This document shows, piece after piece, positions 3,871 to 40,610 of a DNA stretch of 64,000 nucleotides (the stretch's first letter is position 1; each line of letters begins with the position of its first letter). A model generated the notes under the pieces. It worked only from the letters and a program-made list of their open reading frames with translations. It was not told where the DNA came from and did no database searches. The position numbers were made by a program, and so were the translations under genes. Source of the DNA: Chloroflexota bacterium (GTDB lineage: Bacteria > Chloroflexota > Anaerolineae > Anaerolineales > Villigracilaceae); NCBI GenBank assembly GCA_016223135.1, contig JACRPQ010000004.1:186001-250000 (forward strand), read 5' to 3'.

Positions 3871-3962
3871 TAACTCACCTTACGCGGTAGCGCGTCTTCA
3901 GACGACATAAATGTCGCGGTACGAAGAAACTGCGTAACATCAGTAAACAATTCACAATCAAA

Positions 3963-4048
3963 ACGGGGAGCCCCGCCGCACGGGGCTGAGAGGAGCGTGA
4001 AGCGCTCGACCCGCATCACCTGATCCAGATCATACTGGCGGAGGGAAC
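3963..4048 (+). ncRNA. TPP riboswitch (THI element) aptamer
   Basis: The conserved THI-box landmarks are present in order: the ggggagcccc / cggggctgagag P1-P3 side, acccgc, then cctgatccagatcatactgg and cggagggaa at the 3' end. They match the TPP aptamer consensus (CUGAGA, ACCUGAUCU, GGGAA) and lie in the leader of thiN-thiB-thiP-thiQ, which is the expected regulon. Thiamine diphosphate binding should lower expression. Confidence 0.95.
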
Positions 4049-4065
4049 ATACGTCATCCACTACC

Positions 4066-15374: not shown

Positions 15375-16550
15375 ATGCGTTGGATTGATAACATTCCCGT
15401 CTGGGGCGAGCCGGTGGATGAGGGCGCGCTGAAACAAATCAAGAACTGCGCCCGCACTGCCGATGCCGCTGCGCTGATGGCAGACCACCACAAAGGCTAC
15501 GCCGTTCCCATCGGCGGGGTGGTGGCATATAAAGACAGCATCAGCCCTTCGGGAGTCGGATTCGATATTGCCTGCGGCAACAAGGCAGTGCGCCTCGACA
15601 TCCCCGCCTCGGAGGTGCGCGCCAACATCCGCCGCATCATGGACGACATTTGGAACAACCTTTCGTTCGGCATCGGTCTCAAGAACAAACAGCGCGTGGA
15701 CCACGAACTCTTCGACGACCCCGCCTGGTCGCTGCCGATGATGCGACCGCTGAAGGACATGGCGCGCGCCCAACTGGGCACCATCGGCTCCGGCAATCAT
15801 TACGTGGACCTGCTGGAGGATGAACAGGGGCGCATCTGGGTGGGCGTCCATTTTGGTTCGCGCGGACTGGGATACAAGACGGCGACGTTTTTCCTGCGCG
15901 CCGGCGGCGCAAAGGACGGCATGGATGTGGACCCGCTGGTCATTCCGGTGAAGTCGAGTTTGGGGGCGGATTATCTCGCTTGTATGCAATTGGCAGGGCG
16001 CTATGCCTATGCCGGGCGCGATTGGGTGTGCAGCGAGGTGGCGCGCCTGCTGGGGGCGCATATTTTGGAGGAAGTGCATAACCATCACAACTACGCCTGG
16101 CGCGAAACGCACGGCGGCGAGGAACTGTGGGTGGTTCGCAAGGGCGCAACGCCGGCGTTCCCCGGTCAAAAGGGATTTGTGGGCGGCTCGATGGGCGATA
16201 TTTCGGTAATTTTGGAAGGCGTGGAGTCGGAGGAAGCGAAGCATGCGCTATATTCCACCGTCCATGGGGCGGGGCGGGTGATGAGCCGCAACGCGGCGCG
16301 CGGCAAGATCAACCGTAAGACCGGCAAGGTCATTACGCCGGGGGCGGTCACGCGTGAGATGATGATGGAGTGGGTACGCAAGCAGGGGGTGGAACTGCGG
16401 GGCGCCGGCACGGACGAGTCGCCGCATTGTTACAAGCGCCTGCCCGAGGTGTTGGGCTTTCACGGCGCGACCATTCGTATTCTGCACACGCTCAAGCCCA
16501 TTGGCGTGGCGATGGCGGGTGAGCATGAGTTCGATCCTTATAAGGATTAG
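15375..16550 (+). CDS. rtcB: RtcB family RNA ligase
   Basis: The 391-residue protein has the RtcB blocks: GVGFDIACGNKAVR near residue 61 (Asp and Cys metal ligands), LGTIGSGNHYVDLLE near 135, VHFGSRGLG near 156, NHHNYAW near 240, RKGATPAFPGQKG near 256 and VHGAGRVMSR near 295. RtcB joins 2',3'-cyclic phosphate or 3'-phosphate RNA ends to 5'-OH ends using GTP and Mn2+. No archease gene is adjacent. It starts at 15375, six bases after a TAAAAG box, so the leader may be very short. The stop codon lies inside the target duplication of a mobile palindrome. Confidence 0.92.
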   Translation: MRWIDNIPVWGEPVDEGALKQIKNCARTADAAALMADHHKGYAVPIGGVVAYKDSISPSGVGFDIACGNKAVRLDIPASEVRANIRRIMDDIWNNLSFGIGLKNKQRVDHELFDDPAWSLPMMRPLKDMARAQLGTIGSGNHYVDLLEDEQGRIWVGVHFGSRGLGYKTATFFLRAGGAKDGMDVDPLVIPVKSSLGADYLACMQLAGRYAYAGRDWVCSEVARLLGAHILEEVHNHHNYAWRETHGGEELWVVRKGATPAFPGQKGFVGGSMGDISVILEGVESEEAKHALYSTVHGAGRVMSRNAARGKINRKTGKVITPGAVTREMMMEWVRKQGVELRGAGTDESPHCYKRLPEVLGFHGATIRILHTLKPIGVAMAGEHEFDPYKD

Positions 16551-16693
16551 TTTGATTACCTTACACGTTGATTCGGGACGCTGAAAAACGCAGACGAGCG
16601 CAGATGTTTAAGCGCAACCGCCAAGAAAATCAAGAAGAATCAGCGTTTTCAGCGTTCATCTGCGTCCGAATTTTGAAAGTGTAGGGTGATCAG
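16551..16693. mobile_element. 143-bp MITE-like palindrome (copy A) at the rtcB stop
   Basis: Direct repeats AGGATTAG (16543-16550 and 16694-16701) flank the element. Its ends are the imperfect inverted repeats TTGATTACCTTACAC and CTGATCACCCTACAC, and the inner arms consist of 10-bp words (ACGCTGAAAA, ACGCAGACGA, GCGCAGATGT against AATCAGCGTT, TTCAGCGTTC, ATCTGCGTCC). The inverted copy at 23850-24100 matches it nearly base for base. There is no coding capacity. Confidence 0.88.
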
Positions 16694-16718
16694 AGGATTA
16701 GTAGAAAGTGGAAAGAAG

Positions 16719-16840
16719 CTAGCGACCTGACAGTTTCAAATGGGACGCTGAAAAACGCAGATAAACGCAGAAAAAAAACAACTAAATCAGCGCAAATCAG
16801 CGTTCATCTGCGTCCCAAAACAAAAGTGTCGGGTGGCTAG
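16719..16840. mobile_element. 122-bp MITE-like palindrome (copy C)
   Basis: Perfect 8-bp direct repeats GAAAGAAG (16711-16718 and 16841-16848) flank it. Its ends pair as CTAGCGACCTGACAGTTTC and CTAGCCACCCGACACTTTT (15 of 19 positions). The interior is made of 10-bp words (ACGCTGAAAA, ACGCAGATAA, ACGCAG against AATCAGCGCA, AATCAGCGTT). It is almost identical to the inverted copy at 39534-39655. It sits just upstream of the DUF971 gene. Confidence 0.92.
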
Positions 16841-16877
16841 GAAAGAAGTAATAAAAAAAGAAGAAAGAAGGACATTG

Positions 16878-23853: not shown

Positions 23854-24100
23854 TTATCTTAACGTCAGTTCGGGATAAAGCGTCCCGAAGGCTGATTCTG
23901 CTCTTGAACCCGCTGCGTCAAAAGCCTTCGGGACGATTCAAAAGCCTTATCCCGAATTCAGGTTATCTTACACCTTCAAAATTTGGACGCAGATGAACGC
24001 TGAAAACGCTGATTCTTCTTTTTTTTTTGGCGGTTGCGCTTAAAAATCTGCGCTCGTCTGCGTTTTTCAGCGTCCCGAATCAACGTGTAAGGTAATCAAT
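23850..24100. mobile_element. MITE-like palindrome (copy B, inverted) interrupted by element E
   Basis: Flanking repeats GTGCGACT (23842-23849) and GGGCGACT (24101-24108) differ at one base. Without the nested E and one E target copy the element is 142 bp, against 143 bp for copy A, and the two align nearly base for base in opposite orientation. Ends are TGATTATCTTACAC and TTGATTACCTTACAC. It fills the spacer between the third and fourth transpeptidase genes. Confidence 0.88.
23862..23962. mobile_element. 101-bp palindromic element E nested in element B
   Basis: Perfect 8-bp direct repeats TTATCTTA (23854-23861 and 23963-23970) flank it, and the repeat restores B's end (GATTATCTTACACC) when E is removed. 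Its ends pair as TTCGGGATAA against TTATCCCGAA (with a partial match further out), and an inner stem is CGTCCCGAAGGCT / AGCCTTCGGGACG. Confidence 0.85.
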
Positions 24101-39386: not shown

Positions 39387-39533
39387 GCAGCATACTCCTT
39401 TTGCTAATATTGGATTTAAATTTTCCCATGCCCAATGGGTTTTGTCTAGGAAAAGGTTAGGGAGGAATTAATTGACCACCCAAAGAAAAATGATGTGGAT
39501 GGTATATGGGCAGGGTAATTCCCTATGATTTAT

Positions 39534-39655
39534 CTAGCCACCCGACACTTTTGTTTTGGGACGCAGATGAACGCTGATTTGCGCTGATTTAAGTTGTTTT
39601 TTTCTGCGTTTATCTGCGTTTTTCAGCGTCCCATTTGAAACTGTCAGGTCGCTAG
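39534..39655. mobile_element. 122-bp MITE-like palindrome (copy D, inverted copy of C)
   Basis: Flanks TGATTTAT (39526-39533) and TAATTTAT (39656-39663) match at 7 of 8 bases. The reverse complement differs from copy C (16719-16840) only by two single-base indels in an A/C run. The right-hand target repeat includes the stop codon of the rRNA methyltransferase gene. The remaining spacer (39387-39525) shows nothing recognisable. Confidence 0.92.
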
Positions 39656-39659
39656 TAAT

Positions 39660-40610
39660 TTATCTATTGTCCGATTCCCACCTCGCATACACCGCCTGGG
39701 AGAGCAGCCTCCCCGCGCTTTGCTCGCGTGTGACCAGTTCTCCCATCTCGATTTTTCCTCCGAAACCCTCCATCATATCGTCCATTGCCTGCGCCACATG
39801 GATCGCCGAAGCGCGCACCGCATAAATCGTCGTCACGACAAACAGGGGATTATCGCTCAGGCACAGACGACACGCTTCCAAGAGGGTGGGCAGCGATTTA
39901 TACACTTCCCACACCTCGCCTTTCGGTCCGCGCCCGAATTTTGGAGGGTCGAGGATGACGCCGTCATACTTGACTCCGCGCCTTGCCTCGCGCTGGACGA
40001 ACTTGAGCGCATCGTCCACGATCCAGCGGATGGGGCGCTCTGTCAGATTGGATAAAGCCTGATTGTCACGCGCCCAGCCTACGGCTTTTTTCGATGCGTC
40101 CACATGCGTCACTTTGGCGCCCGCGGCGGAGGCGGCGAGGGTGGCGAGTCCCGTATATCCGAACAGGTTCAGGACATTGACTTCTTTGTGCTTGTCGCGT
40201 ACTGCGTGGTGAATCAGGTTGGAGAACCAATCCCAATGCGCCGCCACCTCGGGGAACACGCCCAAATGCCGCCCCGGCGTGGTCATCGCCCAGAAACGCA
40301 GCCCGCCTGGCATCTTCCCATCTTCTTGAAGATGGGGGGAAAGAGGGGGGTATTTCATCTCCCACCTCTCTTCCACCCTTCTCTTGAAATCCCAATGCCC
40401 GCCGCTTTCCTCGCCGCTCGGAATGAACACCGCATCGGCATTCTTCCATTTCGCTTCGGGCAGTGCGCGCTTCCACATCGCCTGCGCTTCCGGGCGTACA
40501 AAGACGTATTTGCCGAAGCGTTCGAGTTTTAATCCGTCGCCGCTGTCGAGCAGGGCATAGTCTTCCCAATGCGGGGATTCGAGAAAGGTGAAGGGAGGGG
40601 AATAGGTCAT
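39660..40610 (-). CDS. Class I SAM-dependent rRNA methyltransferase (RlmI-like catalytic domain)
   Basis: The 316-residue protein has the SAM loop VLNLFGYTGLATLAASAAGA near residue 148, the acidic motif THVDASKKAVGWARDN near 168 and the catalytic VILDPPKFGRGPKGEVW near 218, all typical of 23S rRNA cytosine methyltransferases. The N-terminal PUA domain of RlmI is absent or replaced by a short beta-rich region. Residues 87-101 (PPLSPHLQEDGKMPG) are encoded by a perfect DNA palindrome (40311-40350) and look inserted. It is divergent from mraZ. Confidence 0.87.
   Translation of the reverse strand: MTYSPPFTFLESPHWEDYALLDSGDGLKLERFGKYVFVRPEAQAMWKRALPEAKWKNADAVFIPSGEESGGHWDFKRRVEERWEMKYPPLSPHLQEDGKMPGGLRFWAMTTPGRHLGVFPEVAAHWDWFSNLIHHAVRDKHKEVNVLNLFGYTGLATLAASAAGAKVTHVDASKKAVGWARDNQALSNLTERPIRWIVDDALKFVQREARRGVKYDGVILDPPKFGRGPKGEVWEVYKSLPTLLEACRLCLSDNPLFVVTTIYAVRASAIHVAQAMDDMMEGFGGKIEMGELVTREQSAGRLLSQAVYARWESDNR
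40311..40350. repeat. In-frame palindrome within the rRNA methyltransferase gene
   Basis: CCCATCTTC (40317-40325) pairs perfectly with GAAGATGGG (40328-40336); a second run ggggggaaagagggggg follows. The coding strand gives PPLSPHLQEDGKMPG, close to the PPLSSPHF..ESKMEG insert of mevalonate kinase. Confidence 0.8.

Follow-up and report, generated by a model that had tools for sequence, protein, structure and literature searches.

What kind of element occupies positions 16719–16840 of the DNA stretch analysed here (64,000 nucleotides; the window), how did it arrive there, and where does its palindromic interior come from? A first-pass annotation had read it as a recently transposed noncoding hairpin of 122 bp with perfect 8-bp flanking repeats, and had reported an inverted copy of equal length at 39534–39655 that differed by two single-base indels. 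On re-reading, the coordinates, the length and the flanking repeats all proved correct, and the element folds as described, its strand forming one long imperfect hairpin (z −8.1).

A 122-bp element with target duplications

By sequence reading and copy comparison, copy 1 lies on the plus strand between two perfect 8-bp target duplications, GAAAGAAG, at 16711–16718 and 16841–16848. It begins with the terminal inverted repeat CTAGCGACCTGACAGTTT (16719–16736, plus strand) and ends with CTAGCCACCCGACACTTT (16823–16840, minus strand), and between them lies a core palindrome of 10-bp ACGCWGAT units (16742–16817), which we regard as an interchangeable module. The second copy, of 122 bp on the minus strand (39534–39655), was confirmed by alignment; relative to copy 1 it has one A fewer and one T extra, both in the loop. 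Its target duplication reads TGATTTAT on the low-coordinate side (39526–39533) and TAATTTAT on the high-coordinate side (39656–39663), equal at 7 of 8 positions, and the latter does contain, as had been claimed, the stop codon (TAA, 39660–39662) of the minus-strand ORF 39660–40610, a putative rRNA methyltransferase according to the same annotation. A blastn search of plasmids with the element returned no match.

Copy 1 has a neighbour of a second kind. A 142-bp miniature inverted-repeat element (MITE) at 16552–16693 (plus strand), whose ends are of the TGATTACCTTACAC type and enclose the same kind of core, stops 17 bp short of the left duplication of copy 1. It represents a separate, second insertion, and its 9-bp duplication, AGGATTAGT, is perfect (16543–16551 and 16694–16702); the first copy of this duplication includes the stop codon of ORF 15375–16550. 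Another element with these ends, apparently older, lies at 23959–24099 (minus strand), and no target duplication was recognised around it. Hereafter, an end type is called a coat; the 122-bp element has coat C1, and its two 141–142-bp companions have coat C2.

Copies in the host genome

The host genome (3.82 Mb, 19 contigs, 98.4% complete) gave 69 and 70 matches to the C1 end pattern on allowing up to two mismatches, versus 0 and 1 for a reversed control. These ends form 66 distinct two-ended copies (left end with at most two mismatches, right end with at most four; elements with three or more left-end mismatches exist outside the 66), of which 43 are shorter than 150 bp and 23 are longer, reaching 258 bp with the extra material in the loop. 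The count of copies and of their pairwise identity that the first-pass annotation had proposed thus yielded 66 copies and, for the short ones, a median identity of 95.5%; one further copy in the genome is 100% identical to the window copy. A perfect 8-bp duplication flanks 38/66 copies and one equal at 7 or more of 8 positions flanks 51/66, as compared with 109/13,200 (0.8%) and 235/13,200 (1.8%) for mispaired flanks, and duplication lengths of 7 and 9 were perfect in only 1/66 and 0/66. The target duplications have a G+C content of 22%. A chance repeat is ruled out by the 139 end-pattern matches against one and by these duplication statistics.

One main class of long copies carries a second inverted-repeat insert in the loop, CTGGACTTACGCAAAA...TTTTGCGTAAGTCAAG, flanked, by eye, by AACTT. 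This composite, seen in ten elements of the host genome, has itself spread, as a MITE within a MITE. One 175-bp element (contig 14, 269–443) combines C1 ends with a different interior that lacks the core. At two sites on contig 3 (337379–337522 and 680235–680504), C1 elements lie a few bases from an end of another type, C3, indicating that coats cluster. Among the 69 rows of the genome's own elements used for the ORF, neighbour and junction analyses, in which three elements are counted on both strands, 17 junction-spanning matches were printed: 16 belong to one element inserted in another repeat, whose other copies lack the insertion (79–87% identity), and one is a tandem match of the 175-bp element.

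Could the hairpin instead be a terminator or an RNA element that the host retains for its own use? It is stable, and few ORFs are interrupted: an ORF of at least 150 codons runs across the empty site in 17/69 rows, versus 716/1000 random positions. However, when the neighbouring genes were predicted, crudely, from ORFs, the host's own copies lay in 18 convergent, 37 co-directional and 9 divergent gaps, with 5 at an edge or inside a gene. Gaps of 100 bp or more between genes of the scan loci have a similar make-up (50/141/47), so that no clear terminator placement emerges. In addition, an Rfam search of the window found no match to the element at gathering score, and we consider a retained host function highly improbable. 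Elsewhere in the window, at 3954–4063, the search placed a TPP riboswitch (RF00059).

The empty site

An ortholog search with the upstream gene 15375–16550, which we take by eye to be RtcB-like, covered 61 genomes. Eight orthologs from outside the host were at least 79% identical, and the loci of five congeners (85–98%) were read. In 5/5, both flanking genes are adjacent across a short gap that contains neither copy 1 nor the C2 MITE, indicating that copy 1 is a new insertion. One congener shows AAGTGGAAAGAAG once at the corresponding place, in a purine-rich tract where base-level alignment is loose. The empty-site comparison proposed in the first-pass annotation, which might have shown the copy to be ancestral, therefore returned an unfilled site, and its inference of recent transposition is supported by this result for copy 1, by the median identity of the short copies and by the mostly intact duplications.

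The closest congener, as judged from the upstream gene, has a related insertion sequence (IS) and no other such end at one mismatch, so the spread of C1 to 66 copies looks lineage-specific. The burst would date from after the split from the sister species.

IS4-type ends and a missing transposase

The C1 end pattern, with at most one mismatch, occurs in 75/152 genomes of the family, where the reversed control gave 0 or 1–2 nearly throughout and 8 and 10 in one genome. In the closest congener, two C1 ends at a distance of 1193 bp enclose a frame of 371 aa and are flanked by an 8-bp duplication. The autonomous IS with these ends is 1193 bp long and has the target duplication AAAGTTTT, and ISs of 1173–1195 bp with C1 ends were found at seven further loci, five with 8-bp and two with 9-bp duplications. 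One more has a duplication equal at 7 of 8 positions, another runs into the edge of its contig, and at four others no clear duplication was seen. The transposase matches PF01609 (DDE_Tnp_1; 3.6e-11) and the IS4-family model NF033591 (1e-49).

Matches to this transposase were found in 52/152 family genomes, and the query picks up even relatives of about 30% identity in other genomes; the host assembly gave 0 matches. Gaps in the assembly were checked at all 19 contig starts and 14 of the 19 contig ends: tblastn with the transposases of four coats against these pieces (start of contig 14 included), and against flank pieces from the host genome, found no match. When the same contig pieces, without the start of contig 14, were scanned for the four coats, they showed two pairs of ends, one of C2 (142 bp apart) and one of C3 (107 bp apart), and a single unpaired end each of C3 and C1. 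With no transposase of this group turning up in the host assembly, the donor acting in trans is an inferred one.

The C1 element is short, noncoding and multicopy, its terminal repeats agree with the ends of an autonomous IS (18/18 on the left and 17/18 on the right, compared with one such IS, L133), and it shares the duplication length of the IS (8 bp each, apart from two IS copies with 9). No partner transposase was found in the same genome, which is not required of a MITE. The interior does not look like a deletion remnant of the IS: by eye, the likeness is confined to about 18–25 bp at each end, and the interior matches cores within other coats instead. Judged on these sequence features, C1 is a non-autonomous MITE with IS4-family ends. 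Our main reading, to which we give a probability of about 0.85, is that C1 is a miniature transposon with IS4-family ends that was mobilised in trans and whose core is a module common to the MITEs of other ISs. An IS4-type transposase would have moved it by cut-and-paste to A+T-rich target sites, most of them between genes, and the transposase gene would since have been lost from the host genome or would never have been fixed there. The transposition described in the first-pass annotation therefore stands; that annotation had recognised neither the IS family from which the ends derive nor the absence of a transposase from the host, and had not seen that the core is interchangeable.

One core within nine coats

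An imperfect palindrome of about 70 bp, composed of 10-bp ACGCWGAT units, forms the centre of C1 and is found again inside other ends. A loop separates its two opposed arms, which consist of two to three units (consensus GGACGCWGAT NNACGCWGAT); a third unit was recognised in 114/194 arms of the cores among the matches listed. Arms match themselves at a lag of 20 with a score of 0.37 (0.26 when shuffled) and at a lag of 10 with 0.50, a value partly forced by the search pattern. On folding, 7/8 cores gave z from −3.5 to −10.2; the C2 core of the window was weak (−1.9).

We scanned a one-genome-per-species collection (84,980 species) with a pattern that fixes the arms and obtained at least 108 stretches, mostly from Chloroflexota (Anaerolineae). 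Other hosts among the matches listed, with binning errors possible, were Acidobacteria, Planctomycetota, Thermodesulfobacteriota, a Desulfobacteraceae and a Methanophagales (archaeal) MAG. The archaeal case is a strict core match on a 27.9-kb contig, and is either real or a binning error. The matches listed contain 109 strict cores, with 97 distinct core sequences; 8 at contig ends were set aside, and the remaining 101 were counted.

Nine coats, C1–C9, were distinguished around these cores, by patterns composed after the flanks had been inspected. Among the matches listed, 49/101 strict cores have the same coat on both sides, 8 have a coat on one side, 44 have none and 0 are mixed; the two-sided cases are C1 (7), C2 (8), C3 (8), C4 (8), C5 (6), C6 (6), C7 (2), C8 (2) and C9 (2). 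A control with 2000 random positions in the scan loci gave 0 two-sided calls of one coat and 22 single calls, which gauges chance and not the choice of patterns after seeing the flanks. The seven C1-type scan loci all come from one MAG, and these copies are not independent. A loose set of relatives, of at least 317 rows and including off-register arms and repeats of one element, contains four cores with differing coats on the two sides (C2/C4 twice, C4/C2 once and C2/C3 once). The rows used below for MITE duplications, core alignments and naked cores were drawn from this set, and contain repeats of one element.

Elements with coats C2–C9 are 112–155 bp long in the rows printed. For C5–C9, consistent duplications were not established and no autonomous IS was found; C5 rows have direct repeats of 8–14 nt further out, and it is possible that C6 is no transposon end. 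The two-ended C4 (four) and C3 (three) copies read in the host genome have other interiors; together with the core-less 175-bp C1 copy, this indicates that the core is not obligatory.

Coated Chloroflexota elements tend to have mismatched W positions in facing units, but in other phyla these positions tend to pair. Among the matches listed, W is mismatched in 36/58 outer and 41/58 second units of cores coated on two sides or one, in 10/26 and 17/26 of naked cores, and in 2/13 and 1/13 of the cores from other phyla. These groups were made by hand, with one archaeal and one Acidobacteria core (L245 and L259) in the Chloroflexota naked group and one core from a phylum not stated (L189) in the other-phyla group.

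IS4-type and IS5-type machineries share the core

Autonomous ISs were found for four coats: those of C1–C3 are IS4-type, with 8–9-bp duplications, and that of C4 is IS5-type, with a 3-bp ANT duplication. The C2 IS (1231–1233 bp, 9-bp duplication) and the C3 IS (1171–1183 bp, 8-bp duplications) encode IS4-type transposases about 31–34% identical to the C1 enzyme; against the NF033591 cut-off of 152 bits, three of the four proteins tested score below (131.7, 144 and 117.7) and one above (163.8). The C4 IS is 985 bp long, counted from AGAC, and has AAT duplications in two genomes (G016 and G002). In the first of these, two frames that overlap score above cut-off against DDE_Tnp_4 and HTH_Tnp_4, and below it against NF033581 (IS5). 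C4 MITEs in the relatives have IS5-family ends and the corresponding duplication, exact at 3 bp in 10/12, and none has a duplication of 8 bp or more with up to one mismatch.

Despite these different machineries, the cores are alike. A C2 element (L379, IS4-type) and a C4 element (L412, IS5-type) are equal in 75/83 columns, over an alignment limited to positions 21–102 of 122 and 18–99 of 130 that leaves the ends unaligned, and a C3 element (L392) and the same C4 element are equal in 69/78. The ends of C1, C2 and C3 resemble each other (xxxACCKxACA) as members of one broad IS4 subgroup, and the C2–C3 pair aligns through the ends too, so the number of proven independent IS families is two.

This resemblance would also be expected if a single ancient MITE lineage had retained its core while its ends diverged along with their ISs, without any swapping, and the shared motif and the 8–9-bp duplications of the IS4-type coats C1–C3 are in line with it. 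However, C4 is IS5-type with 3-bp duplications, and its cores match those of C2 and C3 while the ends do not align. Mean core identity, moreover, was 0.664 for elements of the same coat in different genomes (176 pairs) and 0.665 for those sharing neither coat nor genome (546 pairs). Such joint divergence, already disfavoured by C4, is improbable. For different coats in the same genome, the mean was 0.681 (146 pairs). This comparison used 44 elements with a recognised core, the host's own C1 set being cut to 8, from genomes that overlap those of the scan (G014). Similarity did not follow the genome significantly (151/1000 permutations), so exchange within one genome is not demonstrated.

A further route to new MITEs would be that a core beside a single IS end copied that end across by template switching. 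In its favour, the core is quasi-palindromic, the ends are short and 8/101 strict cores among the matches listed have a recognised coat on one side only. In C1 and C3 MITEs, by contrast, neither end is a copy of the other: judged by eye, the pair shows the difference found between the two IS ends, ACAG versus ACAC in C1 and ACAT versus ACAA in C3. This disfavours an origin of both ends by arm copying, which we rate as the least probable of the alternatives.

The core as a possible unit of its own

Is the core then a passenger of the transposons, or is it the primary unit? We propose, tentatively and at slightly less than even odds, that the quasi-palindrome of about 70 bp is an ancient independent genetic unit, present across several phyla, that rides on the ends of active transposons and switches transposase family (IS4-type, IS5-type and perhaps five more) while its sequence stays nearly constant. 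Candidate routes for a change of ends are recombination between core copies and capture of a core by an IS in the course of losing its gene. Extruded into a cruciform, or bent, the helically phased palindromic spacer might join the ends of an element of about 120 bp for any DDE transposase, a role that would explain why different coats tolerate it; that the module is kept for such pairing is a guess, and we consider it rather unlikely.

Alternatively, mobility or function could reside primarily in the core itself, as a selfish or host-bound unit, whether a palindrome of the REP kind or an array bound by protein, that repeatedly gains IS ends and uses any transposase. Consistent with this, 44/101 strict cores among the matches listed have no recognised coat, the homology between C2 or C3 and C4 elements stops at or near the core, and the cores of the Acidobacteria and Planctomycetota MAGs (six and three of them, respectively, lacking recognised ends) keep the arms, with a different loop in each copy. 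Against it, 67 naked rows of the loose set show no target duplication above shuffled pairing and no enzyme was identified. Only 3/67 of these rows have an inverted repeat of their own, in a test that detects just 21/57 coated rows, so undetected or decayed coats around naked cores are possible. We regard this alternative as possible and give it less credence than a unit carried by transposon ends.

Relation to known elements

Bacterial MITEs are usually regarded as shrunken ISs, each bound to one family. Our results suggest a MITE interior with a history of its own, with similar cores lying between ends whose target cuts differ (8–9 versus 3 bp), so that the origin of new MITE families and the purpose of the MITE interior become directly testable. 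Like the IS5-family two-frame elements with 3-bp ANT duplications, which we take to be the ISL2-like group, and their MITEs, the C4 elements of the relatives have such ends and duplications; unlike them, they contain the kind of core found in IS4-type elements.

Bacterial MITEs have been described as short, noncoding elements with the terminal inverted repeats of an IS, a target duplication of IS length and many copies (PMC10969869). C1 resembles MITEs of IS4-family elements in size, in being noncoding, in its IS ends, in duplication length and in copy number. It differs in that its interior is a module common to MITEs of other families and not a recognisable IS remnant, and in that no partner IS was found in the host.

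Tn3 elements have an end type of their own and 5-bp duplications, and IS200/IS605-type elements have neither terminal inverted repeats nor target duplications. C1, which has both, is not a derivative of the IS200/IS605 type. The Tn3-derived miniature elements (TIMEs) are likewise non-autonomous with transposon ends, and are able to build mosaics (PMC4133298); C1 has other ends and relates to another transposase family.

GTAG- and CGTC-tagged REPs are dispersed palindromes of 20–40 bp across phyla with an unpaired tetranucleotide tag, and one possibility suggested for the CGTC repeats is that a broad spectrum of transposases can mobilise them (PMC3733652). The core shares the dispersal of palindromes across phyla, but here about 70 bp of core sit in a 122-bp element with IS-type ends and 8-bp duplications, and GACGC/GCGTC forms part of the paired stem instead of an unpaired tag. 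The size, the IS ends with duplications and the paired GCGTC do not fit a tagged REP.

A literature search with exact strings of the core, with most subscription papers lying outside it, found no paper, and at the level of titles and abstracts we recognised none on an interior shared across IS families. As a MITE family, C1 is ordinary; a core interchangeable across IS families was not found described in this literature.

Palindromes similar to the core, with CACGAAG, CACGGAT or CACCGAG units, were seen in five elements, either in C4 coats (three in the host genome) or nested in C2 or C1 elements, and decamer palindromes of this build may form an entire class.
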